IMG/VR virus record: IMGVR_UViG_3300025151_000074
Span: 1-44,868 of that record
DNA: 44,868 nt
Strand: one strand, 5' to 3'
Origin: a virus
Shown here one piece after another: positions 264-28,389 of this stretch; the stretch's first letter is position 1; each line of letters starts with the position of its first letter. The position numbers and the translations under genes were made by a program. The notes under the pieces were generated by a model that saw nothing but the letters and a program-made list of their open reading frames with translations, did not search any database and had not been told where the DNA came from.

Positions 264-3200
264 ATGCCTATAAATTTTTTAAATGATTCGGCTCTCCCAG
301 ATAACGCTAAGTTAACTTTTGGAGCAGCTCCAGATTTTGAAATATATCATAATAGTACTACAAATGTAAATTGGATTAGTTCTTTATTAGATAGACAATT
401 AACTTTAAGTTCAAACTATACATATATTAAAAATCAAGATCAAGATGAGATTATAGCTGCTTTCTTAGCTGATGGTGCGGTAACACTATATTATAATGCG
501 GCGTCTAAATTTGCTACTACAAATACAGGAGTAAGTATAACTGGAGGTTTTGTAACTACAGCTTCTTCAGATTGTGCTGGTTTAAATATGACTGCTGATA
601 TTGCAATGGGAAGTAATGATATTACAGATAGTAATAGTTCAGCAGGTAGCGCAGGACAAGTATTATCTTCTTTAGGCGCTGGGAATGGTACAGATTGGAT
701 AGATGCTGCAACAGGTACAGTAACTGGAACAGGTGTATCTGGTAGAGTAGCGTATTGGAATGGAACATCTTCATTAACAAGTGATGCTGATCTAACATTT
801 GATGGTACTATATTAACTTTAGGAAGCGCAAGTGTTACTTCTACTTTAAAACTCCCTAATAATGGTTTAATAGAATTATATAATAGTAATGATGATGCAA
901 AATTTACTATTAGAAATATTGGCTCTGCTGCAAATACATTAGCTATTGAACTTGATGATGACTCCGATGCTGTAACTATTGATTCTAGTGGGAATACGAC
1001 ATTTATAGGTAATATAACTTTAGACGATGGTTCTGGAGATTCTCCTTATGTAAGATTTACAAATGCCTCTGATGATTATTGGCAAATGTATGCTAATTCT
1101 TCAGGAAAATTAATATTTAGTCAAAATGGAACTACAAGAGGAACTTTTTCAAGTGGTGATTTAGAATTAGCAAACTCACTAAAAATTACTACTATTGATG
1201 AAGTAGGTTCTGATACAGATAAGTTCTTAATATCAGATTCAGGAACAGTTAAATATGTAACAGGTGCTAACTTAAGATCATATATCGGAGCTGGTACAGG
1301 AAGTGGTACAGTTACTTCAGTAGCTGCTACCGCGGGAACAGGTATATCAATTTCTGGTTCTCCTATAACTAGTAGTGGTACACTTACTATAACTAATACA
1401 GCGCCTGAAACATTTTCAGGTTGGATTGTAAGAGATGACGACGGTGATGATAAAACTTTGAGTGGCAGTACTAATAAATATTTAAAATTTGAAGCAGCTA
1501 CTGGTTCATTAGGAACTAATTTATCTGGTACTGGAACAACCTCTGATCCATACGTAATGACTATTACTTCTCCAGATAGTGATAGTGGAGGTACAGTAAC
1601 ATCAGTAACACTAGCTGCAGGTACAGGAATATCTTTATCAGGAACAAATCCTATTACAAGTAGTGGTACAATAACTATAACTAATACTGCTCCCCAAACA
1701 ACTACAGGTACTGTAACAAGTATAAATGTTAAAACTGATGGAGACGCAATGGATGTTGCTTCTAATTCAGTAACTTCATCTGGAACATGTACAATACCTT
1801 GGCAAGGTACTTCATCTCAATATGTAAATGGTGAAGGTAATTTAACAGCATTGTCTACTTTACCACAAGGTACAGTTACTTCAGTAGGTATAACAGCTGG
1901 AACTGGTATAAGCGTATCAGGATCTCCGGTAACAGGATCGGGTAATATAACAGTTACTAATACTGCTCCAAATGTAGCAGAAACTTTTACTGGATGGGTA
2001 ATTAGAGATGATGATGGTGATGATAAAACATTAAGTGGAAGTACAAATAAGTATTTAAAAGTTACCATGGCAGATGGTACAGCTGGTTCAAATTTATCAG
2101 GAACTGGTACAACAGGAGATCCTTATGTGTTAGCATTAACTTCACCAGGAGATTCTGGTGGTACAGTAACAAGTATAGCTACTACATCCCCAATAGAAGG
2201 TGGAACAATAACAGGTAGCGGAACAATATCACATGCTTCTTTTACAGATACAGAAGCAACAGAATCTGAAACATTAACCTCAGCTGATACATTTACAGCT
2301 TATACAAGTGTTACTACTAATGCAACAGGTCATGTTACAGGGCATACTTTAAAAACATATACTCTACCTACTTCAGTAAGTAGTAGTGGTGTTACTTCAG
2401 TAGCTACAGCTGGTACAGTTAATGGCTTAACATTAACAGGTGGAACTATTACAACAACAGGTACTATAACATTAGGTGGAACACTTGCTATTAATAACGG
2501 TGATTGGTCTGGAACAGACTTAGCTATTGCTAATGGTGGTACTGGTGCAAGTAACGCTGCAGATGCAAGAAGTAATTTAGGATGTGGTACAGGTGATGGA
2601 ACAGTAACCAGCGTAAGTGGTGGTGATGGTTTAACCGGTACAGTAACAAGTTCAGGTTCTTTAGCAGTAGATTATAGCACTTCATCTTCTAATTTAATTG
2701 ATGCTGCTTCTAGTGGAACTCCTTCTGGTAGTGCTGCTATTATATTTAATGACTCTGGTGGTGTAAATAAAGTTTCCTTTAACTCATTAAATATATCACT
2801 TCTTAACAATGATGCTGGATTTACTACAAATAGTGGTACAGTAACAAGTGTAGCAGTAACAGTAGGAACAGGGTTAGATGTTAGTGGTTCACCAATTACC
2901 TCTAGTGGAACTATTGATATTGATTTAGATCTTAATGAATTAAATACAATAGATGGTGAAGATCCTAGCGTGCAATATTTAGTGGTAGTAGATGGTGAAA
3001 ATGCTAATGGAAAAATAACCCCTGCTAGTTTAGCTGAATGGAATTTCTTAGCTTTATCAGGTGGTTCAATGTCAGGAAATATAGACTTGAATAGTAATGC
3101 TGTTCAAATAAATAGAGATGTTTCAGCTAATACTACGTCTGGTCTTACTTTAATAGGTGGGTCATCAACTAGTCTTACTGTTAATAAAATATATTATTTA

Positions 3201-3503
3201 TCTGCGGCTACTACTTGGACACAAGCAGATAATACAACTGCTGCATCAGCTGCTTCAAAAGGATTACTAGGTTATGCTTATAAAGCAGGATCAATGACTA
3301 CAAATGGAATAACAGTTCAAGGTGTAGTATATGATAGTGGTCATGGTTACACTGTTGGAGCGCCTTTATATTTATCATCAGGTGGTGGTATGACAACTAC
3401 TCCTCCTACCACTACTGGTCATACAGCAAGAATAGTAGGATATGCAATTAGTAGTGATGAAATATATTTTGATCCAGATAAAACTTGGATATTACTAGAT
3501 TAA
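264..3503 (+). CDS. Repetitive tail fibre protein
   Basis: A 1079-residue protein built of Gly/Thr/Ser-rich beta repeats. The N-terminal ~95 residues contain an FEIYH motif and an ADGAVTLYY-type block, widespread in marine phage fibres. Residues ~348-860 carry repeated GTVTSV-type motifs (about 348, 443, 482, 536, 633, 779, 858), each followed by a GTGI-S-GSPITSSGT-like stretch. A longer ~100-residue unit containing RDDDGDDKTLSGS occurs twice. The C-terminal ~100 residues (YLSAATTW to FDPDKTW) form a non-repetitive cap resembling the terminal domain of other marine fibres. Such proteins are trimeric adhesins that contact the host surface. The ATG at 264 has an AACGAGG stretch just upstream, one of the few purine-rich leaders here. 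Function is well supported by composition; the receptor is unknown. Confidence 0.85.
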   Translation: MPINFLNDSALPDNAKLTFGAAPDFEIYHNSTTNVNWISSLLDRQLTLSSNYTYIKNQDQDEIIAAFLADGAVTLYYNAASKFATTNTGVSITGGFVTTASSDCAGLNMTADIAMGSNDITDSNSSAGSAGQVLSSLGAGNGTDWIDAATGTVTGTGVSGRVAYWNGTSSLTSDADLTFDGTILTLGSASVTSTLKLPNNGLIELYNSNDDAKFTIRNIGSAANTLAIELDDDSDAVTIDSSGNTTFIGNITLDDGSGDSPYVRFTNASDDYWQMYANSSGKLIFSQNGTTRGTFSSGDLELANSLKITTIDEVGSDTDKFLISDSGTVKYVTGANLRSYIGAGTGSGTVTSVAATAGTGISISGSPITSSGTLTITNTAPETFSGWIVRDDDGDDKTLSGSTNKYLKFEAATGSLGTNLSGTGTTSDPYVMTITSPDSDSGGTVTSVTLAAGTGISLSGTNPITSSGTITITNTAPQTTTGTVTSINVKTDGDAMDVASNSVTSSGTCTIPWQGTSSQYVNGEGNLTALSTLPQGTVTSVGITAGTGISVSGSPVTGSGNITVTNTAPNVAETFTGWVIRDDDGDDKTLSGSTNKYLKVTMADGTAGSNLSGTGTTGDPYVLALTSPGDSGGTVTSIATTSPIEGGTITGSGTISHASFTDTEATESETLTSADTFTAYTSVTTNATGHVTGHTLKTYTLPTSVSSSGVTSVATAGTVNGLTLTGGTITTTGTITLGGTLAINNGDWSGTDLAIANGGTGASNAADARSNLGCGTGDGTVTSVSGGDGLTGTVTSSGSLAVDYSTSSSNLIDAASSGTPSGSAAIIFNDSGGVNKVSFNSLNISLLNNDAGFTTNSGTVTSVAVTVGTGLDVSGSPITSSGTIDIDLDLNELNTIDGEDPSVQYLVVVDGENANGKITPASLAEWNFLALSGGSMSGNIDLNSNAVQINRDVSANTTSGLTLIGGSSTSLTVNKIYYLSAATTWTQADNTTAASAASKGLLGYAYKAGSMTTNGITVQGVVYDSGHGYTVGAPLYLSSGGGMTTTPPTTTGHTARIVGYAISSDEIYFDPDKTWILLD

Positions 3504-4638: not shown

Positions 4639-6192
4639 ATGTCAGACCTTATAGTCAAAAATCTTAGTTTTGGTGACGAGGCTAAGAATCAAGTATTTAA
4701 AGGGATAGAAAAACTCACTAAAGCTGTTAGCTCCACTTTAGGAGCTAGCGGCAAGTGTGTAATAATGGAAGATAGCAATGGAAATCCAATTATAACAAAA
4801 GATGGTGTAACCGTTGCTGATTCTATAGTTTTAAGAAATCCCATAGAAAACATGGGTGCAACTTTATTAAAAGAAGCTGCACGTAAAACAGTTAGAGAAG
4901 CTGGAGATGGTACTACTACTGCCACTTTATTAGCACATGCTATATTAGAAGAAGCTTATAAATTAGAAGATAAGTTTTCAACTAGAGAAATAAAGAATGG
5001 TATAAAAAAAGCAGTTAATAAAGTAACTAAATATTTAGAAAAAATTAGTGTGCCAGTAAAAGACAATATGATAGATCAAATAGCCACTATCTCTACAAAC
5101 AATGATAAAGAATTAGGAAGCTTAATAGCTAATGCTTTCAGATCTGTTGGTGAAACAGGTGTTGTTATAATGGAACCTTCTACGTTAGGTGTAACAGAAG
5201 TTGAAGTAGTAGAAGGAGTAGAATATGAAAAAGGATTTGCTCATGCCAATTTAACAAATAATAAAGATAAAAATACAGTAGAATTAGATAATTCTTTAGT
5301 ATTAATAATGGAGTCAAAAGTAGATTCTATTAGACAAATACAACCTGTATTAGAGCATGTAATAAAAGGAAATAAATCTCTTTTAATTATTGGTGAAATT
5401 GATACTCCAGTGTTGTCTGCTTTAGTAATGAATAAAATGAAAGGAAATATAAAAATAAACGTTATAGATCCTCCTGCTTATGGATTACGAAGAAGAGAAA
5501 TATTAAATGATTTAGCCTTACTTACAAAATCTACTATAATCAATGAAGATTTAGGAGATGACTTAAATTCAATTCAAGTCGATTACTTAGGTTCATGTAA
5601 AAAAGTTTCTTCTACACAAGATAAAACTATAATTCAAGTTAATGAAATTGATGATGAAATAAAAGAAATTATAGTAAAAATAAAAGAAGATTTAAAAAAG
5701 AAAAATAAAGCACATATAACTTTAGGGTTAGAAAAAAGATTAGCTAGATTATCTGCTAAGGTAGCGATAGTTAAGGTTGGTGCAAATTCAGATATTGAAT
5801 TAAAAGAAAAACAAGACAGAGTTGAAGATGCTATCTGTGCTACAAAAGCCGCAATAAAAGAAGGTATAGTACCTGGTGGTGGAATTGCGTTATTAAATGC
5901 AGCTGTTAATACAAAAGAAGCAAGCGAAGCTGAAAAAATATTAACAAAAGCTATTTTAGCTCCATTTAAAACAATATTAGAAAACGCTGGGTTAAATCCA
6001 ACTCTTCCAGAAAATGATGGAGAGGGTGTGGATGTGGTTACAGGAAATATGGTAAATATGGTTGAGTCAGGGATTATTGATCCTTTACTCGTCACTAAAA
6101 GCGCTCTTATAAATGCGGCTTCAGTAGCAACAACTATTTTATCTACCGATTGTGTAATTAATAATATAAGAATTGATGAAAGCACTAGGTAG
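4639..6192 (+). CDS. groEL: Phage-encoded chaperonin GroEL (Hsp60)
   Basis: A 517-residue group I chaperonin subunit that would form ATP-driven ring complexes for protein folding. ATP-site motifs are intact: ITKDGVTV at residues 52-59, GDGTTTAT at 89-96 (catalytic-loop Asp90), and RVEDA with Asp397, matching E. coli Asp398, followed by EGIVPGGGIAL. Equatorial, intermediate and apical domains are all present. Compared from memory with E. coli GroEL, apical binding positions Tyr199, Tyr203, Phe204 and Leu234 read Phe200, Asn204, Leu205 and Gln235, while Leu237 and Leu259 are kept. It ends in NNIRIDESTR, so the usual Gly-Gly-Met tail is missing (the bacterial protein is ~548 aa). AT-rich codon use matches the phage neighbours. 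The gene overlaps groES by 17 bases, so the two are translationally coupled. Identity is very secure; the folding client is unknown. Confidence 0.97.
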   Translation: MSDLIVKNLSFGDEAKNQVFKGIEKLTKAVSSTLGASGKCVIMEDSNGNPIITKDGVTVADSIVLRNPIENMGATLLKEAARKTVREAGDGTTTATLLAHAILEEAYKLEDKFSTREIKNGIKKAVNKVTKYLEKISVPVKDNMIDQIATISTNNDKELGSLIANAFRSVGETGVVIMEPSTLGVTEVEVVEGVEYEKGFAHANLTNNKDKNTVELDNSLVLIMESKVDSIRQIQPVLEHVIKGNKSLLIIGEIDTPVLSALVMNKMKGNIKINVIDPPAYGLRRREILNDLALLTKSTIINEDLGDDLNSIQVDYLGSCKKVSSTQDKTIIQVNEIDDEIKEIIVKIKEDLKKKNKAHITLGLEKRLARLSAKVAIVKVGANSDIELKEKQDRVEDAICATKAAIKEGIVPGGGIALLNAAVNTKEASEAEKILTKAILAPFKTILENAGLNPTLPENDGEGVDVVTGNMVNMVESGIIDPLLVTKSALINAASVATTILSTDCVINNIRIDESTR

Positions 6193-6436
6193 AAATTTAA
6201 TTATAGAAAAAGTAGAAGAAGGAACCACAGAAACAAAAGGTGGGTTATTGTTGGCTGAAAACCACAGAGATGATATAAGATATATTAAAGCTAATATTAT
6301 AGAAGTTGGTGATGAGTTAAATATATTAAAAAAAGGAGATACTATATTTTACGATAGACATGCTGGACACAAGATAGAAGTAGAAAATAAATCATATCAT
6401 GTTATTAAATCGCATGATGTAGTTGTTGTTTTATGA
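6176..6436 (+). CDS. groES: Phage-encoded co-chaperonin GroES (Hsp10)
   Basis: An 86-residue co-chaperonin that would cap the GroEL ring. Hallmarks are the N-terminal MKALGRNLIIEKVEE strand, a mobile-loop region (residues ~16-32) ending in the hydrophobic run GGLLL that normally docks on GroEL, then VGDELNILKKGDTIFYD and the closing strand HDVVVVL. The ATG at 6176 is preferred: a TTG codon three bases upstream is in frame but unnecessary. The start lies inside the last 17 bases of groEL, and the stop shares ATGA with the next gene at 6433. The order groEL then groES is the reverse of the usual bacterial operon. Loop length and tripeptide fit a working partner for the adjacent GroEL, although pairing with host GroEL is also possible. 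Confidence 0.92.
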   Translation: MKALGRNLIIEKVEEGTTETKGGLLLAENHRDDIRYIKANIIEVGDELNILKKGDTIFYDRHAGHKIEVENKSYHVIKSHDVVVVL

Positions 6437-6876
6437 AAAAGCTAGACGCAAGAGATCTTAAAGAGATGAACTTGTTAAAACATTACCGTATAATACGCAA
6501 ATGGGCTTCCAGGAACAACAGCTTACGTGAAGCAGATTTAGAAATATTGATATATTTAGACTGTTTAGATTTATTTACAAAAAAAGATTTTGAAGAAGGT
6601 GTTTATTCTTATAGTTGGGATAACAGAAGATGGAGTAGATTAATAAAAGATGATTGGATAACCGTTTGGAGACGTAGAAATAGAACAACACAAAAATATA
6701 ATATATATAAAGTCTCTTTTAAAGGTAAACAATTAATAAGTAGAATATATCGAATCATGTTGGGAAAAGAAGATATACCAACTAGTGAAAGAAGAAATAA
6801 TATAATTAAAGGAAATTCATATATGGATAAGGTTTTAACTAAAGCTATATATAACGTAAATAAAGACAAATTTTAA
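6433..6876 (+). CDS. Putative winged-helix (MarR-like) DNA-binding protein
   Basis: A 147-residue basic protein whose ATG overlaps the groES stop (ATGA). The segment LREADLEILIYLDCLDLF (residues ~31-48) looks like the first helix of a winged-helix domain. It is followed by a helix-turn-helix-like stretch with WSRLIKDDWITVWRRR and a wing-like YNIYKVSFKGKQLISRIY. This pattern occurs in MarR-type proteins carried by many phages. The C-terminal ~35 residues are Lys/Arg/Asn-rich. No enzymatic motif is present. It could regulate phage or host promoters, or act as a structural DNA-binding protein. The winged-helix call is pattern-based and moderate; co-translation with the chaperonin genes is directly visible. 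Confidence 0.55.
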   Translation: MKKLDARDLKEMNLLKHYRIIRKWASRNNSLREADLEILIYLDCLDLFTKKDFEEGVYSYSWDNRRWSRLIKDDWITVWRRRNRTTQKYNIYKVSFKGKQLISRIYRIMLGKEDIPTSERRNNIIKGNSYMDKVLTKAIYNVNKDKF

Positions 6877-11841: not shown

Positions 11842-12069
11842 ATGGATTCGGTTATAAGAAAAATCAGTATTGGTTCTGATTATAAAAACGATGCCATGCA
11901 TTATTCTATAGGTCAACAGGTTTATGGTGGGCATGAGATTTGTTATATAATTTTTGAAGAATCAGATAACTCTTATAATATACATATCAAAAAAGATGAT
12001 GAGGTATTGCCTTGGAAGAAGTTTAATTCTAACATGGCAATATCTATTGAATTCGATCTTGAATATTAA
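11842..12069 (+). CDS. Small conserved phage protein (VIRKISIGSDYK type)
   Basis: A 75-residue soluble protein beginning MDSVIRKISIGSDYKNDAMH and followed by GQQVYGGHEICYI, NIHIKKDDEVLPWKKFNS and a closing strand (AISIEFDLEY). It looks like a compact beta-rich fold. Proteins with this IRKISIG-DYK start occur beside the coiled-coil gene in Bacteroidetes phages, in my recollection, and are unannotated. It starts directly after the preceding stop, and its own stop overlaps the next start as TAATG, so the group is translationally coupled. Function unknown. Confidence 0.65.
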   Translation: MDSVIRKISIGSDYKNDAMHYSIGQQVYGGHEICYIIFEESDNSYNIHIKKDDEVLPWKKFNSNMAISIEFDLEY

Positions 12070-12674
12070 TGAAAGCCTTATATGATTTTATTATAACTCC
12101 TTTAGGAAATACTTATGATAATAAAATTAAAGTTGATGGTTTAGAAATTATATTAAATACTAAAATAGAAAGCTTTAAATTTGTTAATAATTTAGCAAAA
12201 GTTATTGAAATTCCTTTAGAGATAGAAACACCTATTAAAAAAGGTGATATTATTTTAATACATCATAATGTTTTTAGAACTTTTTATGATATGAAAGGTA
12301 TTAAAAAGAAAAGTAGATCTTTTTTTAAAGATGATTTATACTTTTGTGCCTTAGATCAAATTTATTTATATAAAAATAAAGATAAATGGGAATCTATTAA
12401 TGATAGATGTTTTATTCAACCCTTAAAAAATGATAATAAATTAAGTGTTGAAAAAGAACAAAAATTAAAAGGCGTATTAAAAATAAGTAATAAATCTTTA
12501 ACTAAATTAGGAGTTGAGGAAGGAGATACTGTAGGTTATACTCCATATGGAGAATATGATTTTATAGTAGATGAAAAAAGATTATATTGTATGAAATCAA
12601 ATGATATTGTTATAAAGTATGGAAACAAAGAAAACCAAACTGAATATAATCCAAGCTGGGCAAGTAGCAGTTAA
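12069..12674 (+). CDS. Putative tandem GroES-like (co-chaperonin fold) protein
   Basis: A 201-residue protein that reads as two GroES-like units. Unit 1 (about 7-108) has FIITPL, KVIEIPLE, PIKKGDIILIHHNVF and ALDQIYLYK. Unit 2 (about 115-187) has CFIQPL, GVLKISN, GVEEGDTVGYTPYGEYDFIVDEKRLYCMKSNDIVIKYG. Both follow the cpn10 order: start strand F-I-PL, G-V strand, V-x-GD-V, 'Y-E' hairpin, and a closing D-I/Q-I strand. GDTVGYTP-YGEYDF-VD-LY-M is particularly GroES-like. A clear mobile loop with a hydrophobic tripeptide is not seen, so it may not cap GroEL in the usual way. The last 56 bases overlap the next gene. The fold call is from motif order only. Confidence 0.5.
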   Translation: MKALYDFIITPLGNTYDNKIKVDGLEIILNTKIESFKFVNNLAKVIEIPLEIETPIKKGDIILIHHNVFRTFYDMKGIKKKSRSFFKDDLYFCALDQIYLYKNKDKWESINDRCFIQPLKNDNKLSVEKEQKLKGVLKISNKSLTKLGVEEGDTVGYTPYGEYDFIVDEKRLYCMKSNDIVIKYGNKENQTEYNPSWASSS

Positions 12675-12897
12675 AGAATTAATTAAAGTTGCTAAAGAAC
12701 CCATTATAGATTTTGGACCAGATATTTCCGCGGATAGACTTAAGAACGCTGCAGCTACTAAAAAGCTAGCTATATTTGATGCTTTTGAAATTCTTAATAG
12801 AATAGAAGAAGAGAAAAATATACTAGAAGACAAGCCAAAGGTAGAAGAAAAAAAGAAAACCAAATTCCAAGGTTTTGCAGAAGGGAGATCTAAATAA
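12619..12897 (+). CDS. Small pre-terminase protein, candidate small terminase subunit
   Basis: A 92-residue, mainly helical protein. LNIIQAGQVAVKELIKVAKE (residues ~8-27) forms an amphipathic helix, followed by DISADRLKNAAATKKLAIFDAFEILNRIEEE and a Lys-rich tail FQGFAEGRSK. The ATG lies inside the preceding gene (56-base overlap), and the stop overlaps the terminase start as TAATG. Small helical proteins in this position are often small terminase subunits that recognise phage DNA. This one is short for that role (TerS is usually above ~100 aa) and no helix-turn-helix is evident. TerS is therefore a positional inference; the alternative is a conserved accessory protein. Confidence 0.5.
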   Translation: METKKTKLNIIQAGQVAVKELIKVAKEPIIDFGPDISADRLKNAAATKKLAIFDAFEILNRIEEEKNILEDKPKVEEKKKTKFQGFAEGRSK

Positions 12898-15113
12898 TGT
12901 ACGAGCAAGAATTAGTAAAAATATTACCTGATTATATTGATTCAAAAACTTTAAAAAGAAACAATAGATATAAAAAATGGGAATATGGATATAATGAAGA
13001 ACATGATATAATAATTATATCTAGAACTGGTCAAATTGGTGAGATATATGAGATCCAAAATCTTAAAATAGCTTTACCAAAAACTCCAAAAGAAATAGTT
13101 AAATTTTCTAATAATACGTGGGAAAGAACAGAAATTCCTAAAGTATTAGGAAAAATAAAAACAATTTTTGATTGGGAACAATATCCAGAGGAGTTTAAAG
13201 AAAAATGGTATGATTTTATAGACGAAGAGTTTAATAAAAGAGAGGAAGGATTTTGGTTTTATAATGGTAAAAAACCAACTTATTTAACCGGAACTCACTA
13301 CATGTATCTTCAGTGGAGTAAAATAGATGTAGGAAAGCCTGATTTTAGAGAAGCGAATAGATTATTTTATATATTTTGGGAAGCATGTAAAGCAGATGAT
13401 AGGTGCTATGGAATGTGTTATTTGAAAAATAGACGTTCTGGATTTTCTTTTATGGCTTCTGGTGAAGTAGTTAATTTAGCTACAATATCTAGTGATTCAA
13501 GATATGGAATATTATCTAAAACTGGACCTGATGCTAAAACAATGTTTACTGATAAGGTTGTGCCAATATCAGTTAATTATCCATTCTTTTTCAAGCCCAT
13601 CCAAGATGGTATGGATAGACCTAAGACAGAGTTAGCGTATAGAGTACCAGCTTCTAAATTTACTAGAAGAAAGATTGTAACTGGAGAAATGGCTATTGAT
13701 TTACAAGGACTAGATACAACTATAGATTGGAAAAACACAGGTGATAATAGTTATGATGGTGAGAAATTAAAACTATTAGTACATGATGAAAGTGGTAAGT
13801 GGGAAAAACCAAACAACATATTAAATAACTGGAGAGTTACAAAAACAACGCTGCGATTAGGTAGTAGAATTATTGGTAAATGTATGATGGGATCAACATC
13901 AAATGCATTAGATAAAGGAGGAGAAAATTTTAAAAGATTATATTATGATTCAGACGTCACGCAAAGAAACGCCAATGGACAGACTCGCTCAGGATTATAT
14001 AGTTTGTTCATTCCTATGGAATGGAATTACGAAGGATACATTGATTCTAATGGATTACCTGTATTCACAAAACCTAAAACCAAAGTCACAGACCCTCATG
14101 GTTCGGAAATTAAAATAGGAGTAATTGATTATTGGCAAAATGAAGTAGATGGATTAAAAGATGATCACGATGCTTTAAATGAATTTTATAGACAATTCCC
14201 GAGAACAGAAGACCATGCTTTTAGAGATGAAGCTAAACAATCTCTTTTTAATTTAACTAAAATCTATGAACAAGTAGATTGGAATGCTGATGTTAGAAAT
14301 AGTAGATTAGTTACACGTGGAAATTTTCAATGGATTAATGGAGTAAAAGATAGTGAAGTAATATTTGCTCCCAATAATAAAGGTAGATTTTTTGTTTCCT
14401 GGGTTCCAGAACCGCACTTGCAAAATAAAGTAAGAATTAAAAATGGTCTTAAATATCCTGCAAATGATCATTGTGGTGCTTTTGGATGTGACCCTTATGA
14501 TATATCAGGAACAGTAGATTCTAGAGGATCTAATGGATCTTTACATGGTTTAACTAAGTTTTCTATGGAAAATGTACCACCTAATCATTTCTTTTTAGAA
14601 TATATAGCTAGACCTCAAACCGCTGAAATATTTTTTGAAGACGTGTTAATGGCTTGTATATTTTATGGAATGCCAATACTTGCAGAAAATAACAAACCAA
14701 GATTATTATATTATTTTAAACGTAGAGGTTATAGAGGTTATTCAATGAATAGACCTGATAAAATTTATAATAAACTTTCAGTAACAGAAAGAGAGATAGG
14801 TGGAATACCTAACTCAAGCGAAGATATTAAACAAGCACATGCCGCTGCTATTGAATCATATATAGAAGATTATATAGGATTAAGACAAGATGGCACGTAT
14901 GGAGACTTGTATTTTCAACGAACATTAGAAGACTGGGCTAAATTTAATATAAATAATAGAACCACTCATGATGCTTCTATTAGTTCGGGTTTAGCTATAA
15001 TGGCTTGTAACAAAAATAAATATAGACCAAATCCTATAGTCGAAAGAAAAATATATGATTTAGGAATAAAAAAATACACAAATACAGGAGTAGTTTCAAA
15101 AATAATTGAATAA
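12897..15113 (+). CDS. terL: Terminase large subunit (DNA-packaging ATPase/nuclease)
   Basis: A 738-residue packaging motor. The ATPase half has a degenerate Walker A, KNRRSGFS (residues 177-184), of the 'RR-GFS' form I associate with Bacteroidetes phage terminases, a Walker B LLVHDE (293-298), and a coupling-type GSTSNALDKGG stretch. The nuclease half has GCDPYD with Asp532 as a likely first metal ligand, followed by later acidic positions. The enzyme would cut concatemeric DNA and drive it into the prohead through the portal encoded next door. The start is fixed by TAATG overlap with the upstream gene, and the stop abuts the portal ATG with no spacer. The length is close to the crAss-like TerL range. 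The function is secure; the exact family is not tested. Confidence 0.9.
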   Translation: MYEQELVKILPDYIDSKTLKRNNRYKKWEYGYNEEHDIIIISRTGQIGEIYEIQNLKIALPKTPKEIVKFSNNTWERTEIPKVLGKIKTIFDWEQYPEEFKEKWYDFIDEEFNKREEGFWFYNGKKPTYLTGTHYMYLQWSKIDVGKPDFREANRLFYIFWEACKADDRCYGMCYLKNRRSGFSFMASGEVVNLATISSDSRYGILSKTGPDAKTMFTDKVVPISVNYPFFFKPIQDGMDRPKTELAYRVPASKFTRRKIVTGEMAIDLQGLDTTIDWKNTGDNSYDGEKLKLLVHDESGKWEKPNNILNNWRVTKTTLRLGSRIIGKCMMGSTSNALDKGGENFKRLYYDSDVTQRNANGQTRSGLYSLFIPMEWNYEGYIDSNGLPVFTKPKTKVTDPHGSEIKIGVIDYWQNEVDGLKDDHDALNEFYRQFPRTEDHAFRDEAKQSLFNLTKIYEQVDWNADVRNSRLVTRGNFQWINGVKDSEVIFAPNNKGRFFVSWVPEPHLQNKVRIKNGLKYPANDHCGAFGCDPYDISGTVDSRGSNGSLHGLTKFSMENVPPNHFFLEYIARPQTAEIFFEDVLMACIFYGMPILAENNKPRLLYYFKRRGYRGYSMNRPDKIYNKLSVTEREIGGIPNSSEDIKQAHAAAIESYIEDYIGLRQDGTYGDLYFQRTLEDWAKFNINNRTTHDASISSGLAIMACNKNKYRPNPIVERKIYDLGIKKYTNTGVVSKIIE

Positions 15114-17522
15114 ATGAAAATATACACTAATTCTAACAGTGCTTTTCCAAGCCAGGTAGTACCAGACGCGGAAAAAGCTTCACTTGAATATGGGTCCCAA
15201 GTAGCAATGGCTATTGAGAATGAATGGTTTAACTACGGTAGAACTAATGGTAATAGATATTTAACAAATTGGAATAATTATCACTATCTAAGATTGTATG
15301 CTAGAGGAGAACAACCAGTTCAAAAATATAAAGATGAATTAGCTATTAATGGAGATCTTTCATATCTTAATTTGGATTGGAAACCAGTTCCTATACTATC
15401 TAAATTTGTAGATATTGTTGTTAATGGTATATCAAATAAAGAATATGATATAAAAGCTTATGCACAAGATCCTGAATCTGTAAAGCAAAGAACAAATTAT
15501 GCAACCGCAATTGCTCAAGATATATTTGCAGCACAGCAAATAGCACAAGCTCAACAAAATTTAGGTTTAAATCTACAAAGATCTAATTTATCTCCTTTAG
15601 AATTACCTAGAACTACAGATGAGTTAGAACTTCATATGCAATTAAGTTATAAACAAGCTATAGAAATTGCAGAAGAAGAAGCTATTTCACAAACTTTGGC
15701 TCAAAACAAGTGGGATTTAACTAAACGTAGATTAAATCAAGACTTAGTTACTTGTGGTATTGGATGTGTTAAAACAAATTTTAATAAATCAAATGGTATT
15801 ACGGTTGACTATGTGGATCCAGCTTATTTGGTTTATTCTTACACAGAAGATCCTAATTTTGAAGATATATATTATGTGGGTGAAGTTAAATCAATAACAA
15901 TACCTGAATTAAAGAAACAATATCCTGATATTTCTAATGAAGAATTACAGAGAATTCAAGAAATGCCAGGTAATAGACAGTATATTACTGGATGGGGTAA
16001 TTATGATAATAATACCGTACAAGTATTATATTTTGAATATAAAACATATATGAATCAAGTGTTTAAACTTAAACACACTGATAATGGATTAGAAAAAATA
16101 ATTCAAAAAACTGATGAATTTAATCCACCACCAAGCGATAATTATAATAGAGTTGGTAGAAGTATAGAAGTTTTATATACAGGAGCTAAAGTTTTAGGAA
16201 CTAATACCATGTTGGAATGGCGATTAGCAGAAAACATGACTAGACCCGTGGCAGATACTACTAAAGTAGAAATGAATTATGCTATATGTGCTCCTAGAAT
16301 GTATAAAGGTAAAATTGAATCTTTAGTAAGTAAAATAACTGGTTTTGCTGACATGATTCAATTAACTCATTTAAAAATGCAACAAGTTCTTGCTAGAATG
16401 GTTCCAGATGGAGTATTCTTAGATATGGACGGACTTGCAGAAGTTGATCTAGGTAATGGTACTAATTATAATCCAGCTGAAGCATTAAACATGTATTTCC
16501 AAACTGGTTCTATAGTTGGTAGATCATTAACTCAAGATGGTGATTTAAATAGAGGTAAAGTACCTATTCAAGAATTAACTTCTTCTGCTGGAGGAGCAAA
16601 ACTACAAAGTTTAATTCAAACCTATCAATATTATTTACAAATGATAAGAGATGTGACCGGATTAAATGAAGCAAGAGATGGTAGTTTACCTGATAAAGAT
16701 GCTTTAGTTGGTTTAGCTAAAATGGCAGCAAATCAATCTAATATAGCTACTAAACATATTAATCAAGCTAGTCAATATTTAGCTTTAAGAATTTGTGAAA
16801 ATATATCTAAAAAATTAGTAGATGTTTTAAGTTTTCCTTTAACTCATAATGCTTTAATAGAAAGCGTATCTTTATTTAATGCAGAAACTTTAAGAGAGAT
16901 TTCTCATTTAAATAATCATGATTTTGGAATATTTTTAGAACTTGAACCTGATGAAGAAGAAAAGCAGATGTTAGAACAAAACATACAAATTGCTTTGCAA
17001 GCTGGAGGAATAGATTTAGAAGATGCTATAGATATACGTCAAATTAAAAATCTTAAACTGGCTAATCAGTTATTAAAACAAAGAAGAAAGAGAAAAGTAG
17101 AAAGAGATCAAGCAGCACAACAAGCAATGGTAGAAGCTCAAGCTCAAGCAAATGCACAAGCTGCAGAACAAGCCGCGGTTGCTGAAGTTCAAAAACAACA
17201 AGCTGTAACTGAACAAAAGGTTCAAATAGAAAATGCTAAGTCACAATTTGAAATACAACGTATGCAAACTGAAGCTGAAATAAAACAACAGTTAATGGCT
17301 CAAGAATTTGAATATGATAAGCAATTAGCTCAACTTGAAAGAGGAATGACTTCAGCTAGAGAAAAAGAAATTGAAGATAGAAAAGATAAGAGAGTAAGAA
17401 TACAGGGTACACAACAAAGTGAACTCATTCAACAAAGGCAAAATGATGGTACACCTAGAAACTTTGAAGATCAAAATCAGGGTCTAGGAGAATTAGGATT
17501 ACAAGCGTTTATGCCTAGATAA
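15114..17522 (+). CDS. Portal protein
   Basis: An 802-residue protein starting directly after terL. It has a portal-like order: an N-terminal Trp/Tyr-rich region (NWNNYHYLRLYARGEQPVQ), a long alpha/beta wing and stem region (PVPILSKFVDIVVNGISNKEYDI; VDYVDPAYLVYSYTEDPNF), a crown-side DVTGLNEARDGSLPDKDALVG helix, and a helical C-terminal domain. Residues ~655-770 form a Gln/Ala/Glu-rich coiled coil (AQAQANAQAAEQAAVAEVQK), typical of portals in crAss-like phages. The portal dodecamer sits at one capsid vertex, nucleates assembly and docks the terminase. Length and position between terL and the scaffold/capsid genes agree. Identity is well supported by context and architecture. Confidence 0.85.
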   Translation: MKIYTNSNSAFPSQVVPDAEKASLEYGSQVAMAIENEWFNYGRTNGNRYLTNWNNYHYLRLYARGEQPVQKYKDELAINGDLSYLNLDWKPVPILSKFVDIVVNGISNKEYDIKAYAQDPESVKQRTNYATAIAQDIFAAQQIAQAQQNLGLNLQRSNLSPLELPRTTDELELHMQLSYKQAIEIAEEEAISQTLAQNKWDLTKRRLNQDLVTCGIGCVKTNFNKSNGITVDYVDPAYLVYSYTEDPNFEDIYYVGEVKSITIPELKKQYPDISNEELQRIQEMPGNRQYITGWGNYDNNTVQVLYFEYKTYMNQVFKLKHTDNGLEKIIQKTDEFNPPPSDNYNRVGRSIEVLYTGAKVLGTNTMLEWRLAENMTRPVADTTKVEMNYAICAPRMYKGKIESLVSKITGFADMIQLTHLKMQQVLARMVPDGVFLDMDGLAEVDLGNGTNYNPAEALNMYFQTGSIVGRSLTQDGDLNRGKVPIQELTSSAGGAKLQSLIQTYQYYLQMIRDVTGLNEARDGSLPDKDALVGLAKMAANQSNIATKHINQASQYLALRICENISKKLVDVLSFPLTHNALIESVSLFNAETLREISHLNNHDFGIFLELEPDEEEKQMLEQNIQIALQAGGIDLEDAIDIRQIKNLKLANQLLKQRRKRKVERDQAAQQAMVEAQAQANAQAAEQAAVAEVQKQQAVTEQKVQIENAKSQFEIQRMQTEAEIKQQLMAQEFEYDKQLAQLERGMTSAREKEIEDRKDKRVRIQGTQQSELIQQRQNDGTPRNFEDQNQGLGELGLQAFMPR

Positions 17523-18810: not shown

Positions 18811-20286
18811 ATGGCTTTAAGTCCTCAATTTGGCTCGATTACACCGAGTCAATCACAGTTGGCACTTCAATCCAATTACATTAACTTTGCTGGTGCAGCA
18901 GGGGTAAATTTTTCTCAACAATATTTACCTGAGTTATATGAGCAAGAAGTTGAAAGATATGGTAATAGAACTTTATCTGGATTCTTAAGAATGGTTGGTG
19001 CAGAAATGCCTATGACAAGTGACCAAATAGTCTGGTCAGAACAAAATAGACTACACATCGCTTATGATAACTGTACGTCTGCTTCAGGTGCTGGAACAAT
19101 TACAATTCCTGTTACAGCTGCTGGTGCTGCTACTCCTATCGTAAACGTTGTATCTCCATCTTCAACAATTGTTGTTATGGACGACCTTGGAAACGAATGT
19201 AAATGTTTAGTTACAGACTCCGACACTAGATTAGCTGGTGGTGGTGGTAACCCTGGACAGCTTACTGTACAACCTTATACTGCTGCTAGCTTAGCTGCTG
19301 CAGGTATTGCTGACGGTGCTGGAAAGAAAATATTTGTTTACGGTTCTGAATTCCAAAAAGGAACATCAACAGGTAATGCTGTAGTTGGAGCTAATGCTTT
19401 AGCTCAAGCTAATAACCCAATGGTTAGTGTTGATCCTGCTTTTACTACATTTACTAATTCACCAATTATCATTAGAAGTCAATATACTGTTAACGGTTCT
19501 GACACAGCTCAGATCGGTTGGGTAGAAGTTGCTACTGAAGATGGTACAGGTGGTTATCTATGGTTCTTAAAAGCTGAGTCTGAAACAAGACTTAGATTTG
19601 AAGATTACCTAGAAATGTCTGTAGTTGAAGGAGAATTAAACTCTGGTGGTGTTATTGATGCTGCTTACAATGGAACTGAAGGTTTATTTGCTGCTATTAA
19701 TAATGGTGGTAATGTAGAAGTTGGATTCACAGCAGCTGCTGGAATCGACGCTTTTGACGCTATACTTAAAAACCTTGATACTCAAGGAGCTATTGAAGAA
19801 AACATGTTATTCTTGAACAGATCTACTGCTCTTGATTTTGATGATATGTTAGCTTCTATATCTTCAGGTGTTAATGGTGGTGTTGCTTATGGATTATTTG
19901 AAAATTCAGAAGAAATGGCACTTAATCTTGGATTTAGTGGTTTCAGAAGAGGTTCTTATGACTTCTATAAAACAGATTGGAAATACTTAAACGATGCTTC
20001 TACTAGAGGAGCAATGACAGGTCCTGCTTCTATTGAAGGAGTATTAGTTCCTGCAGGTACTTCAACTGTTTATGACCAAATTCTTGGTACAAACATTAGA
20101 CGTCCTTTCTTACATGTAAGATATAGAGCTTCTCAAGCTGATGATAGAAGAATGAAATCATGGCTAACTGGTTCAGTTGGTGGTGCATTTACATCTTCTT
20201 TAGATGCAATGGAAGTTAACTTCTTATCTGAAAGATGTTTAGTAACTCAAGCTAGAAATAACTTTGTATTATTCAAAGGTATCTAG
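18811..20286 (+). CDS. Major capsid protein
   Basis: A 491-residue protein directly after the scaffold-like gene and before a strong terminator. It is rich in Ala, Gly, Ser and Thr and has the segmented character of an HK97-fold capsid subunit: N-terminal arm, a long helix region (YLPELYEQEVERYGNRTLSGFL), beta-rich middle domains, and a C-terminal RCLVTQARNNFVLFKGI, an ending I associate with crAss-like capsid proteins. Codon choice is biased relative to neighbours (more AAC, GAC, TTC), as expected for the most abundant virion protein. A central Ala/Gly/Thr-rich stretch (residues ~85-215) may be an inserted surface domain. It would assemble the icosahedral shell. A plausible client of the phage GroEL, by inference only. 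Confidence 0.85.
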   Translation: MALSPQFGSITPSQSQLALQSNYINFAGAAGVNFSQQYLPELYEQEVERYGNRTLSGFLRMVGAEMPMTSDQIVWSEQNRLHIAYDNCTSASGAGTITIPVTAAGAATPIVNVVSPSSTIVVMDDLGNECKCLVTDSDTRLAGGGGNPGQLTVQPYTAASLAAAGIADGAGKKIFVYGSEFQKGTSTGNAVVGANALAQANNPMVSVDPAFTTFTNSPIIIRSQYTVNGSDTAQIGWVEVATEDGTGGYLWFLKAESETRLRFEDYLEMSVVEGELNSGGVIDAAYNGTEGLFAAINNGGNVEVGFTAAAGIDAFDAILKNLDTQGAIEENMLFLNRSTALDFDDMLASISSGVNGGVAYGLFENSEEMALNLGFSGFRRGSYDFYKTDWKYLNDASTRGAMTGPASIEGVLVPAGTSTVYDQILGTNIRRPFLHVRYRASQADDRRMKSWLTGSVGGAFTSSLDAMEVNFLSERCLVTQARNNFVLFKGI

Positions 20287-23406: not shown

Positions 23407-26400
23407 ATGGCAGAATCTAAGAATAGTTTTATCCAGTCTAAAATGAATAAAGACTTGGATGAGAGATTAGTTCCTAACAATGTGTATAGAGATGGTCAAA
23501 ATATTGCTGTATCAAGATCTGAAGGCAGTGATGTTGGTTCATTAGAAGCCATACTAGGTAATAAAAAAGTTTATGATAACACGGGGTTAAACTGTATAGG
23601 TTATATAACAGATGAAGCGAATGGTTATATATATTATTTTTTAACATCTTTTGATGGAACAGGAACTATAGCTTCTACAGATAAATGTCAAATATGTAGG
23701 TATAATCCATCAAGTAATCAAAACACTATTTTAGTGGGAGGTAGTAGTAATGGAGATGGTATATTTTTAAATTTCTCTACTGCTGCTCCTATATATGGAA
23801 TAAACTTATTAGAAGATTTATTATTCTGGACTGATAATAGAAATCAACCAAGAAAAATTAATGTTACTACAGCAATGGGTAACCCAGGATCTACAGGTTT
23901 TTATCAAACAGAACAAAGTATTTCTGTATGTAAATATTCTCCTTTTATAGCTCCTGTAGTAGTTGATTTAAGAAGTGTAGCTCCTGGAGCATATCCTTCT
24001 ACAATGACAGATGCTGCAGATCCTTCTTATGTAGACATAGGAGTTCAAAAATGGACATCAGATAATCTTAATGTAAGTAGATATAGAAATGGAGATGATA
24101 TTTTATTCTGTGATGATGCAGCGGCTTGGGCTGCTGCTAACGCTGCAACAACTGGAGCTTGGTGTTGGTACAATTTTGATCAAGCTAACGAAGCTGTTTA
24201 TGGTAAACTATATAATAAGTACGCTGTTAATGATTCTAGAAACTTAGCTCCTTATGGTCATTCTTTACCAACCGATGCTCAATTTAATACGTTTATAAGT
24301 GGTTCTGATTCAAGTACTAATGCACAAACTATTAAATCAATTAATCTATGGGCTGGTGATGTTGGTACTGATGTGTTTGGATTTGATGCGTTACCTGCAG
24401 GTGAAGTTAATGCTGCTGGTACTGCGAGTGGAGTAACAACAACTACAACTTATTGGGCAGATTCAGCTAGTACTAATTACTTAAGTGTTCCTAATACTAA
24501 TGCTACCGGTGTTTCATTAACTACTGGTGGTGGTGCTGCTTCTGATTTAGGCGTAGGAAGATCTGTTAGATTATTAAGAGATGCTAGTTATAAAGGATGG
24601 GGTGGAGATCCTGAGTTTATAAGAGATAAATTTGTAAGATTTAGTTATAGATTTAAATATACTGATAATGAATATTCTTTAATTGCTCCTTTTACTCAAG
24701 AATGTTTTATTCCTCAACAATCTGGGAGATTTCTTGGAGATGATGAAGAAGCTGCGTTTAGAAGCACGTTAATAGAATTTATGCAAAATTCTATTAACAA
24801 TATTGTATTAAACATTGAACTTCCCTCTTTAGATATTATTACAGATTATCAAGTAAGTGATATAGATATTATATATAAAGAATCTGATTCTTTAGATTAT
24901 AAAATTCTTCAAACTATTCCGGTTAATAATACTTTTATTGGTAACTTAAATAATACTACTATATATCAATACACTTATCAATCAACTATTCCTTATAAAA
25001 CTTTACCTCAAGATGAAACTACTAGAGTGTATGATAAAGTACCTGTAAAAGCTTTAGCTCAAGAAGCTGCAGGAAATAGAATTATGTATTCTAATTTTGT
25101 ACAAGGATATAATCAACCTTCAGGACTAGATTATTATGTTGGAGTACAAGACAAAGGAGCGCAGAATGCTGAAGAATATCCTCAACATTCAATTAAACAG
25201 AATAGAAATTATCAAGTCGGTATAATATTAGCAGATAAATGGGGTAGACAAAGTGATGTAATCTTATCTTCTAAAGATAATATTCTTGTAGATACAGGTG
25301 AACCAGTAGAAGGATCAAACTATTTTACTACTTACAAACCTCAATCCTTTTACTCTAGTGTAAAAACATGGCCTGGTGATGAATTAAAAATTACATTTGA
25401 TAGTGTAGTACAAGGTATAGGTGAAACAGATTTATATGCTAATCCTATAACCGCGACTGGAGGCTCTAGTACCTACACTATTACTTATCCTATGTCGGGA
25501 CCTAATTGGCCTGGTTTTTGGAATTGGAGCACGCAAGAGTTAACAACAGTAGCAAATCAAAGACAATATACATTTACTAATTTATCTTATCAAGATAATG
25601 CTCCTTTAGTATTTAGTTTATTTTTAAATCAAGGTGAGGGTTGGGTTTTAGTTGATCCAACTAATTATACTACAGGTGATAGTGGAGACGATGAAATATT
25701 AGTTACCTATACTAATATTATAGACACTGATTTAACAAGTTCGATTACAACTAATTCAGCCGATGCTACAAACGGAGATTATACTAATGCGACGTGGTCT
25801 ACTAGTGGAAGTGGAACTGGACTCGTTATAAATGTAACTGTAGCGGGTAATGCAGTTACAGTAGTTACAGTTGTAAGTGGAGGTAAAGGATTTGCGGTTG
25901 GAGATACTATAACTATAGGAACTGGTGTTATTGGTGGAAGCACAAATGTTATAATCACATTAGTAGCTTCAGATATTGGAGGTCCTACAACTGCTGGTTG
26001 GAAATTATTAGGTAAAAACTTTTATAATACTACTCAATATAGATATGAAATTAGATACCCAGGATTAGATACAGGTTTTCCTACTAATACAATACCTAAT
26101 ACTACAGCTATATTTGGAGCAGGAAGATATTTAAGAGGAAAATATAGTGACTATGTGGAAATTCAAACATTTTCTCAAATAAGTAATGTTGATAAGTATT
26201 TTATATATACTAACAAAGAAATTGCTGACAACTATATGTTCCAAGGTGATAGTAGTCCTTCTAGTAATCCTACTACACGAACTGAACCTTTAGCTACTCA
26301 AAATATAAACAACTCTACTTATTCATTAAATCAAATGGGTTGGTATTCTTATAGAGTTGTAGTTAAACAACAAGAGCAAGAATATTACAATGTTTATTTA

Positions 26401-28389
26401 CCTGGTATAGTAAATGGTTATCCAATAGCTAATGATACAGCAGAAAGAGATGAGACCGCGTTTGTTACTTTAATTGGAGATAATCTTAATAAAGTTCCTA
26501 GAGATTTAGCAGAAGCAGCTCCTAATGATACTCAATTTAATAGTAAAGTTACATGGTTTGGTAGAGTTACTAACAATGCTAACGCTACTTATAAAAATCA
26601 GCAAACAGTTCCTACTGTTAATCCAGATACTGTAAACGTCTTATCTACTATTATAAATATGTTCCCAGGAATAACTACTTATGATGATAGTGCTGGTAAT
26701 ATAAATGATAATTGTATATTTGATATAGATCAAAGACCTGTGTTAGGTAAGATTTCAACTCAAAAAACTATAGGAGTTACAGAAAATCTATGGACAGCCG
26801 CAACACCTTATCCCGATGCTATGGGATTAGCTGTGTATGAGACTAGTCCTACATTCACATTTTTAGAATTGTTTTATGAAACATCTAATTCAGCTTTAAT
26901 ATCTGATTTAAATACTGATATAGTTTCTAGTGGTACAGCTATTAACGGCATAACAGATCCTAACTTTGTAATGTATGAATCAGCTTGCGCTGGAACAACA
27001 GTAACTAGCACGTTCTATCCAACTACTCCTGATGGTAATGATTTATTAACTACTGCATTAGATTCTGACATGGAAGTAAGACAGTATGAAGCAGATGAAA
27101 CAACTATAAATCTTACAGGTCCAGATCGATCTGCAGATTTTACTTTAGTACCAAATGGTTCTGGTGGTTACACAGTAGAAGTTCAAAACCCTCAAGCTGC
27201 TTTAACTAATTACGAGTATGAACAAAAATATTGGTTTAATATTAAATTTACTCAAGCAGATGGAACAGAAAGTTATCAATCTTTTACTGGAGCTCTTCAA
27301 AATGTACAACCTAACGCAACCACTGGATTATCTCCTAATATAAAAGTTAATGAAACAGTAATATTAGACTATAATTCTACTTTCAGTTTAGGAGGAAGTA
27401 ATCCTGGTTATGTAAAAGGTGATAATGGTAGTTGTAATGATTGTGATCAAACAGGAGATTTAAACTGGGTAATTTCTCAAATTACTATTGTAGATATTAA
27501 TGGGGGATTACCTATAACAGGTACTGAAACAGGTGCAGATGCTGGTCCAAATGATATTGATTATTATTTTAGAATAACAGGACAACAAGTGTATGGTGAT
27601 TGCCTTGTACCTGATAATTATTGGGCATGTAGATTAGAAAGAACAACAGCTACTTATACTGATCCTAAACCTAAGCTTCATACTATAACTTTAAGATTAT
27701 ATGATACAAATGGAACAGGTGATTACGATGATTTAGTTATATCATTTACACCTCAAGATATAAGATATGATGGAGAGGTTGTATATTCAAGTTACAATAC
27801 AGGTTATTCTGTAGGTGCAGGTTATTATCAAACAACAAATATAACACCAATGAATCCTAGTTGTGGTGGTTCTTTATTAAAACCTAGATTTTTAGGTGAA
27901 ATACAAAACTGGAAAAATGTTGATGTATATGTTTATATAAATACTGTAACTACTTCTTTATCCGGCTCAAGTACTTTAGCTTATAGTGTAAGTGGTAACA
28001 ACTCCAATCCTACTTCAACTACGGGTCCAGCTGATGGTGCAAGTACTGTTAATAATTATAGTGGAAATAGTTGGCCTCAAACAGATAGTTATTCTTTAGG
28101 TAATCCAATTAATCAAAATGCTATAGTATGTACATTAAAAGCATTTACCCCAACTGCAACTCAAATAAATGACGGAGTAAAACCTGGAGATACTGGATTT
28201 GAAGATTGTGTTTTAGTAAATGTAGATATTAAAGCTACTACAATGCCTTGTGGTGAAGGTGCTGCAATGTATATGAAATACTCTTTAACTAATCCAGGAG
28301 TTACATTTAGTAATATTAGTGCTATATCTCCAACTCAACCACCTTTAATTGGTCAAACGTTTCCACATACAACGCCTTGGCCAGCATAG
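23407..28389 (+). CDS. Large tail-hub 'stabilization' protein with inserted FISUMP domain
   Basis: A 1660-residue virion protein. The N-terminus (NSFIQSKMNKDLDERLVPNN) and the FVRFSYRFKYTDNEYSLIAPFTQECF block match the tail stabilization protein type of crAss-like phages. Between them, residues ~205-392 form a clear FISUMP domain (Fibrobacter succinogenes paralogous domain): GVQKWTSDNLNVSRY, TGAWCWYNFDQANEAVYGK (from ~249), LYNKYAVND (~268), LAPYGHSLPTDAQF, and GRSVRLLRD (384-392). FISUMP modules are common in Bacteroidetes surface proteins and have a lectin/FGE-like fold. A second insert (~780-860) has the VSGGKGFAVGDTITIGTG motif seen in marine phage virion proteins. The last ~500 residues are beta- and Cys-containing. 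It probably forms the tail hub and may present the FISUMP module to the host surface. Confidence 0.75.
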   Translation: MAESKNSFIQSKMNKDLDERLVPNNVYRDGQNIAVSRSEGSDVGSLEAILGNKKVYDNTGLNCIGYITDEANGYIYYFLTSFDGTGTIASTDKCQICRYNPSSNQNTILVGGSSNGDGIFLNFSTAAPIYGINLLEDLLFWTDNRNQPRKINVTTAMGNPGSTGFYQTEQSISVCKYSPFIAPVVVDLRSVAPGAYPSTMTDAADPSYVDIGVQKWTSDNLNVSRYRNGDDILFCDDAAAWAAANAATTGAWCWYNFDQANEAVYGKLYNKYAVNDSRNLAPYGHSLPTDAQFNTFISGSDSSTNAQTIKSINLWAGDVGTDVFGFDALPAGEVNAAGTASGVTTTTTYWADSASTNYLSVPNTNATGVSLTTGGGAASDLGVGRSVRLLRDASYKGWGGDPEFIRDKFVRFSYRFKYTDNEYSLIAPFTQECFIPQQSGRFLGDDEEAAFRSTLIEFMQNSINNIVLNIELPSLDIITDYQVSDIDIIYKESDSLDYKILQTIPVNNTFIGNLNNTTIYQYTYQSTIPYKTLPQDETTRVYDKVPVKALAQEAAGNRIMYSNFVQGYNQPSGLDYYVGVQDKGAQNAEEYPQHSIKQNRNYQVGIILADKWGRQSDVILSSKDNILVDTGEPVEGSNYFTTYKPQSFYSSVKTWPGDELKITFDSVVQGIGETDLYANPITATGGSSTYTITYPMSGPNWPGFWNWSTQELTTVANQRQYTFTNLSYQDNAPLVFSLFLNQGEGWVLVDPTNYTTGDSGDDEILVTYTNIIDTDLTSSITTNSADATNGDYTNATWSTSGSGTGLVINVTVAGNAVTVVTVVSGGKGFAVGDTITIGTGVIGGSTNVIITLVASDIGGPTTAGWKLLGKNFYNTTQYRYEIRYPGLDTGFPTNTIPNTTAIFGAGRYLRGKYSDYVEIQTFSQISNVDKYFIYTNKEIADNYMFQGDSSPSSNPTTRTEPLATQNINNSTYSLNQMGWYSYRVVVKQQEQEYYNVYLPGIVNGYPIANDTAERDETAFVTLIGDNLNKVPRDLAEAAPNDTQFNSKVTWFGRVTNNANATYKNQQTVPTVNPDTVNVLSTIINMFPGITTYDDSAGNINDNCIFDIDQRPVLGKISTQKTIGVTENLWTAATPYPDAMGLAVYETSPTFTFLELFYETSNSALISDLNTDIVSSGTAINGITDPNFVMYESACAGTTVTSTFYPTTPDGNDLLTTALDSDMEVRQYEADETTINLTGPDRSADFTLVPNGSGGYTVEVQNPQAALTNYEYEQKYWFNIKFTQADGTESYQSFTGALQNVQPNATTGLSPNIKVNETVILDYNSTFSLGGSNPGYVKGDNGSCNDCDQTGDLNWVISQITIVDINGGLPITGTETGADAGPNDIDYYFRITGQQVYGDCLVPDNYWACRLERTTATYTDPKPKLHTITLRLYDTNGTGDYDDLVISFTPQDIRYDGEVVYSSYNTGYSVGAGYYQTTNITPMNPSCGGSLLKPRFLGEIQNWKNVDVYVYINTVTTSLSGSSTLAYSVSGNNSNPTSTTGPADGASTVNNYSGNSWPQTDSYSLGNPINQNAIVCTLKAFTPTATQINDGVKPGDTGFEDCVLVNVDIKATTMPCGEGAAMYMKYSLTNPGVTFSNISAISPTQPPLIGQTFPHTTPWPA

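Follow-up and report, generated by a model that had tools for sequence, protein, structure and literature searches.

What does a virus do with a groEL gene that runs into a groES gene, and does such a pair belong to the virus at all? The window analysed here, at its full length, is a single 44,868-bp IMG/VR virus record (IMGVR_UViG_3300025151_000074). A sequence-only reading had described in it a phage groEL-groES pair in inverted order, with overlapping genes, and had suggested an autonomous folding machine for phage proteins. The features concerned are the following:

4639..6192, + strand: groEL, group I chaperonin, 517 aa (ATG at 4639, TAG at 6190-6192)
6176..6192, + strand: overlap between the groEL 3' end and the groES 5' end, 17 nt, seen in the sequence
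6176..6436, + strand: groES, single-domain co-chaperonin, 86 aa (ATG at 6176, stop at 6434-6436)

The groEL product matched the Pfam family Cpn60_TCP1 (PF00118) over residues 26-509 (8e-60, 203 bits against a cutoff of 34.3), phrog_5725 (1.4e-139) and the GroEL structures of the PDB, with E values in the 1e-100 range. All three motifs on which its assignment as a group I chaperonin had been based (ITKDGVTV, GDGTTTAT and RVEDA) are present, and the Pfam and PHROG matches agree with it. The ATP-site residues K51, D52, G53, D87, D398, G415 and D495 are conserved, and the ATP residues are invariant across 15 representatives of the clade to which the window belongs. The ATPase residues D52, D87 and D398 are all identical; P33 is replaced by A and N479 by D. 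As judged from the alignment, the nucleotide pocket and the catalytic aspartates are intact. The description of this GroEL as ‘full-length’ holds for its domains, but the C-terminal GGM tail is absent and seven residues are deleted at the loop equivalent to E434 of E. coli GroEL, a ring contact. This deletion is fixed in 79 of 79 clade members, and a region of ring-ring contact (461-467) is variable and often shortened in the clade. Because these ring contacts are altered, the phage GroEL rings may be single or weakly paired; our predicted structures are AlphaFold monomer models, which are silent on ring number and lid stoichiometry. In the apical groove, the window protein retains L237, L259 and V263, and positions that contact GroES are altered: Q replaces L234 in every one of the 15 representatives, which also have a polar or acidic residue in place of Y203.

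Regarding groES, its product matched Pfam Cpn10 (PF00166; 7.5e-13, 48.8 bits against a cutoff of 21.1), and its predicted model (pLDDT 81) has GroES 3nx6 as best match (Z 11.7). A mobile loop with a hydrophobic tripeptide is present, with G22, G23, L24, L25 and L26 invariant over 19 clade sequences; the loop carrying this GGLLL is disordered in the model, where residues 18-24 fall below 50. A lid-dependent chaperonin would be the natural reading of the two protein sequences. We also considered the missing roof hairpin of this GroES as a gp31-like phage adaptation, and rejected the idea since several bacterial GroES, for example those of Campylobacterota, are equally short. The groES start had been placed 17 bases inside groEL, and the overlap is exactly 17 nt with the ATG at 6176. 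An in-frame TTG at 6173 would give a 20-nt overlap, and the ATG is preferred because of the overlap pattern seen across the clade. The 17-nt overlap likely couples the translation of the two genes. A 147-aa ORF (6433-6876), with a weak match to phrog_17028, begins on the groES stop (ATGA) and occurs in 84 of the clade loci that were searched. Over 28 loci its divergence closely tracks that of GroEL (r 0.93), and it may therefore be part of the groEL-groES unit. Of the clade loci searched, only 6 have the 1079-aa ORF that lies upstream of groEL (264-3503); it is a variable module beside the conserved pair, possibly with a role in host range.

To place this arrangement among relatives, we scanned IMG/VR, which returned 264 relatives, and kept the best 80 for locus analysis. 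The order groEL then groES was found in all 80 of these loci. Among their 73 distinct groEL sequences, the overlap is 17 nt in 67, 20 nt in 5 and 1 nt in the remaining one. The same order is annotated in the cultured Elemovirus and in the podovirus MW202828. Bacterial GroELs retrieved with a broad profile showed the opposite order in 70 of the 71 loci having a neighbouring groES; the sole exception in this sample is Blastopirellula marina, with groEL then groES, which shows that a bacterium can have the inverted order too. We rejected a further candidate for an overlapping pair, cr108_1 (Crassvirales), whose overlapping ORF gave no Cpn10 match. According to these results, the metagenomic search that had been proposed does recover the same order in independent contigs, while the supposed rarity of the inverted pair has to be abandoned: the order is fixed in the clade and is common to Elemovirus and MW202828, and GroEL itself has been published in marine flavophages. 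As independent contigs share the order in 80 of 80 loci, and 67 of 73 sequences share the 17-nt overlap, neither chance nor a chimeric or faulty assembly explains the pair.

The chaperonin genes are under purifying selection, with pairwise dN/dS values, window against nine relatives, of 0.09-0.24 for groEL and 0.09-0.33 over the set of GroEL, GroES, terminase and the tandem co-chaperonin described below. Across 53 loci the distance matrices of these four proteins correlate with one another (r 0.90-0.97), which is what a long shared inheritance would give. Taken together, the sequence comparisons indicate that the two genes are functional, have been inherited vertically in viruses and were not joined by chimeric assembly. 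Neither GroES nor GroEL covaried with the tandem protein robustly more than control gene pairs did; as a sign of one GroEL/GroES/tandem complex, covariation was strong against terminase alone and unexceptional with more control genes and loci, and we discarded it.

Could the virus nevertheless have acquired the pair from a bacterium recently, or could the pair be contaminating DNA in the contig? It is of bacterial type, and in an AU test the grouping of the window clade as sister to Bacteroidota GroELs was not rejected (p 0.357). Against this, the nearest bacterial GroEL is only about 42% identical, the maximum among the bacterial GroELs retrieved; all 13 clade representatives in the tree are viral and form one group (support 100) outside the bacterial sequences; synteny is identical in independent contigs; and GroEL divergence parallels that of terminase. 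The only viral GroELs near or inside bacterial branches are those of Flavobacterium phage immuto, Bacteroides phage SJC03 and Vibrio phage Va1. With the longest branches removed, all viral sequences of the set with the groEL-groES order group together (support 98). The GroEL tree places the protein with viruses, and the pair does not lie within one bacterial genus with near-identical flanks. Identity and tree together lead us to reject a recent host origin; as ‘recent’, the acquisition is already refuted, and we give this explanation almost no credence. The source of the pair would be old on these sequence grounds, possibly an ancient Bacteroidota one.

The rest of the genome indicates which kind of virus carries the pair and brings in a second co-chaperonin gene. 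The relevant features are these:

12069..12674, + strand: second co-chaperonin, 201 aa, predicted tandem Cpn10-like (phrog_13932 ‘co-chaperonin GroES’, 5e-25)
12619..12897, + strand: 92-aa ORF of unknown function between the tandem gene and terminase, conserved in the clade
12897..15113, + strand: large terminase (phrog_6681, 3e-167)
15114..17522, + strand: portal protein (phrog_6547, 1.7e-141)
18811..20286, + strand: 491-aa virion structural protein (phrog_13704, 1.9e-81)

The terminase is 63% identical to that of MW202828, a circular 60.8-kb podovirus from Manatee Spring, 45.5% to that of Elemovirus and 31-39% to those of Cellulophaga and Tenacibaculum phages. This similarity places the window among Bacteroidota podoviruses: the virus, a marine one, appears podovirus-like, kin of the Flavobacterium Elemovirus and of Cellulophaga phages. 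We infer a Bacteroidota host, in agreement with the published host predictions for such phages (PMC8776804). The main genes of the window all lie on the + strand, and the holin, terminase, portal and structural protein genes follow groEL-groES downstream. The placement of the pair in a ‘late module’ is therefore reasonable, although it is a deduction from this layout. The 491-aa structural protein is probably the major capsid protein, by its place in the gene order, and is a candidate client of the chaperonin. Other parts of the genome deserve mention on their own account. A structural protein at 28422-29735 has a crassvirus muzzle C-terminal domain (Pfam crAss_MUZ_C, 2.4e-9), which links the tail of this phage to crAss-like phages. 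Inserted in a 1660-aa structural protein (23407-28389) is a Fib_succ_major domain (Pfam, 1.3e-19), a module that may serve for host binding or as a decoration. Finally, a giant ORF of 3478 aa (32595-43031), with a similar-sized ORF in Elemovirus and MW202828, includes a polynucleotide-kinase-like stretch near 40280-40800 (phrog_415, 2.8e-6).

The second co-chaperonin, at 12069-12674, had been missed by the sequence-only reading and is the less ordinary part of the system. An AlphaFold model built from 49 viral sequences (pLDDT 85.6, pTM 0.79) gave as best full-length PDB match the Chlamydomonas Cpn20 (7ekq_R; Z 10.4, rmsd 4.1 over 160 residues, model residues 1-185), and single-domain Cpn10 structures matched the second half only. 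Profile comparison to Cpn10 gave 97.8% probability for the second half and a weak 13.9% for the first. The protein is thus predicted to consist of two head-to-tail Cpn10-like domains, the N-terminal one being assigned by its predicted fold. A conserved hairpin in the first domain carries the hydrophobic stretch LIL; in the second, the mobile-loop motif (GG followed by hydrophobic residues) was not recognisable by eye. The gene precedes terminase by around 220 nt in almost all clade loci that show both, and in the other genera examined it also lies just ahead of terminase. Its end overlaps the 92-aa ORF by 56 nt in a different frame (12619-12674). A C-terminal YNPSW motif, conserved in the clade and absent from relatives outside it, sits in this overlap. 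The family profile extends from residue 1 to at least residue 183 in MW202828, Elemovirus, Panino, phi38:1 and phi19:3. A profile search of 299 Flavobacteriaceae genomes gave no match to the tandem family, while the same profile found six of six phage controls, and a single-protein (not profile) query of 296 Bacteroidota genomes gave none either, so we rejected a cellular gene as its identity.

We then searched 28 whole records for the three families. GroEL, the single Cpn10 and the tandem protein occur together in window-like, MW202828-like, Elemovirus, Callevirus and Panino genomes; among the GroEL-bearing groups, one fragmentary record lacks GroEL. The complete genomes of Baltivirus phi19:3, phi13:2 and phi18:3 have both the single and the tandem co-chaperonin and no GroEL, and family searches detected none of the three in Gundelvirus. 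Because the lids persist in Baltivirus without a phage barrel, they may be used there on the host GroEL or have another role; by analogy with gp31, action on the host barrel is plausible. Of the ‘autonomous folding machine’, then, a dedicated folding machine is still the best reading, but its autonomy is not supported, since relatives keep the co-chaperonins without GroEL.

How might the three proteins work together? With reasonable confidence, we favour a three-protein system, made of GroEL, the GroES of the overlapping gene and a tandem lid encoded beside the packaging genes. Its likely task is to fold late virion proteins, and the tandem protein would be a second kind of lid, used either in place of GroES or mixed with it; we infer the time of expression, the binding of the lids, the clients and the cooperation between lids. 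Late in infection, GroEL and GroES would be made together through translational coupling. In a cycle driven by ATP, phage structural proteins not yet folded would be captured by GroEL, and GroES would close the ring over an enclosed late phage protein. The tandem protein could replace GroES as lid, or join it in a mixed lid, when the client is a particular late protein (the capsid protein being the simplest case), and would adapt the barrel to that client as T4 gp31 adapts GroEL to gp23. A more specific version, which we put forward tentatively and hold to be less probable than its negation, is that GroES and the tandem protein co-assemble on the phage GroEL (for instance, three tandems and one single giving seven domains), in convergence with chloroplast Cpn60/Cpn10/Cpn20; such mixed lids would be widespread in Bacteroidota phages and tuned to large virion proteins, and in relatives lacking GroEL both lids would take the host barrel.

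The main rival accepts GroEL-GroES as a working chaperonin and holds that the tandem protein has put the Cpn10 fold to another use, in packaging or virion assembly, where it would act with terminase and portal. The near-constant position close to terminase in the clade and in the other genera examined, the retention of the tandem gene in Baltivirus without GroEL and the unclear mobile-loop motif of its second domain all speak for this. However, the closest solved full-length relative of the protein is a chloroplast co-chaperonin, Cpn20. Baltivirus also has a separate single-domain Cpn10, which makes it usual there for lids to occur without a phage barrel, and the annotation of phi18:3 flags some neighbours as detected by mass spectrometry, and not the tandem protein. 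We therefore regard a packaging role as possible, though rather unlikely. One could also argue that the phage chaperonin is lidless, like the single-ring chaperonins of phages EL and OBP, and that its lid genes serve the host GroEL. The two altered ring-ring contact regions described above would fit, and so would the phage EL chaperonin, which did not interact with E. coli GroES (PMC7185714). But groES overlaps groEL and is kept in all 80 loci (the best 80 of 264 relatives), and the window GroEL is close to bacterial GroEL, whereas EL-type chaperonins align only partly. A lidless chaperonin is thus improbable, and the three-protein folding system remains our preferred reading. If it is right, these phages, together with the relatives that have both lids and no barrel, offer a compact natural system in which to study the reason for two types of lid, the possible mixing of lids and the possible retuning of the folding chamber by phages to suit capsid proteins; as the genes are present in cultured Cellulophaga and Flavobacterium phages, this can be tested.

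As an arrangement, groEL followed by groES is already known from viruses; what has been little described is the tandem co-chaperonin linked to terminase. For a marine group of Flavobacteriaceae phages that includes Cellulophaga phi38:1, GroEL has been reported from 36 environmental genomes (Nishimura et al. 2017, PMC5332604). The likeness to the window lies in a GroEL carried by flavophages related to phi38:1, and the accessible parts of that paper do not describe the conserved 17-nt overlap or the tandem co-chaperonin. Maribacter phage Panino was reported with GroEL and GroES (PMC11590407), and cpn10 is listed as a Pervagoviridae core protein (PMC8776804). For the tandem architecture in phages, a literature search that reached few subscription papers found no description, which leaves its novelty unproven. 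Virioplankton chaperonins, in work by Marine et al. from 2017, reportedly show a gene order that follows viral GroEL phylogeny.

Compared with known systems, the window is closest to Elemovirus (Flavobacterium sp. BAL314) and MW202828, which share groEL then groES, overlapping or abutting, and a second Cpn10-type gene upstream of terminase; their GroELs are only 36-39% identical to that of the window, and in Elemovirus, unlike the window, groEL-groES lies on the strand opposite to the structural genes. Phages EL and OBP also encode a GroEL-type ATPase, but that of EL is far more divergent in sequence and was reported without a co-chaperonin and without use of E. coli GroES, whereas the window has an adjacent groES. 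T4 gp31, which is without roof loops and serves gp23 folding (PMC6318259), is a phage co-chaperonin with the Cpn10 fold, like the window GroES (1g31, Z 8.9), with 10% identity in the structural alignment. It uses the host GroEL, while the window has a phage GroEL, so the lack of a phage GroEL that marks the gp31-type system is seen in Baltivirus and not in the window; dedication to virion protein folding is known for gp31 only. Finally, the chloroplast Cpn60/Cpn10/Cpn20 set combines one barrel, a single-domain lid and a tandem two-domain lid, as the window is predicted to do; a review calls the tandem co-chaperonin unique to chloroplasts and describes mixed lids (PMC5780408). The phage second domain differs from Cpn20 in having no clear mobile-loop motif, and at 14% identity there is no detectable sequence link between the two tandem proteins, so that convergence is likelier than common origin.
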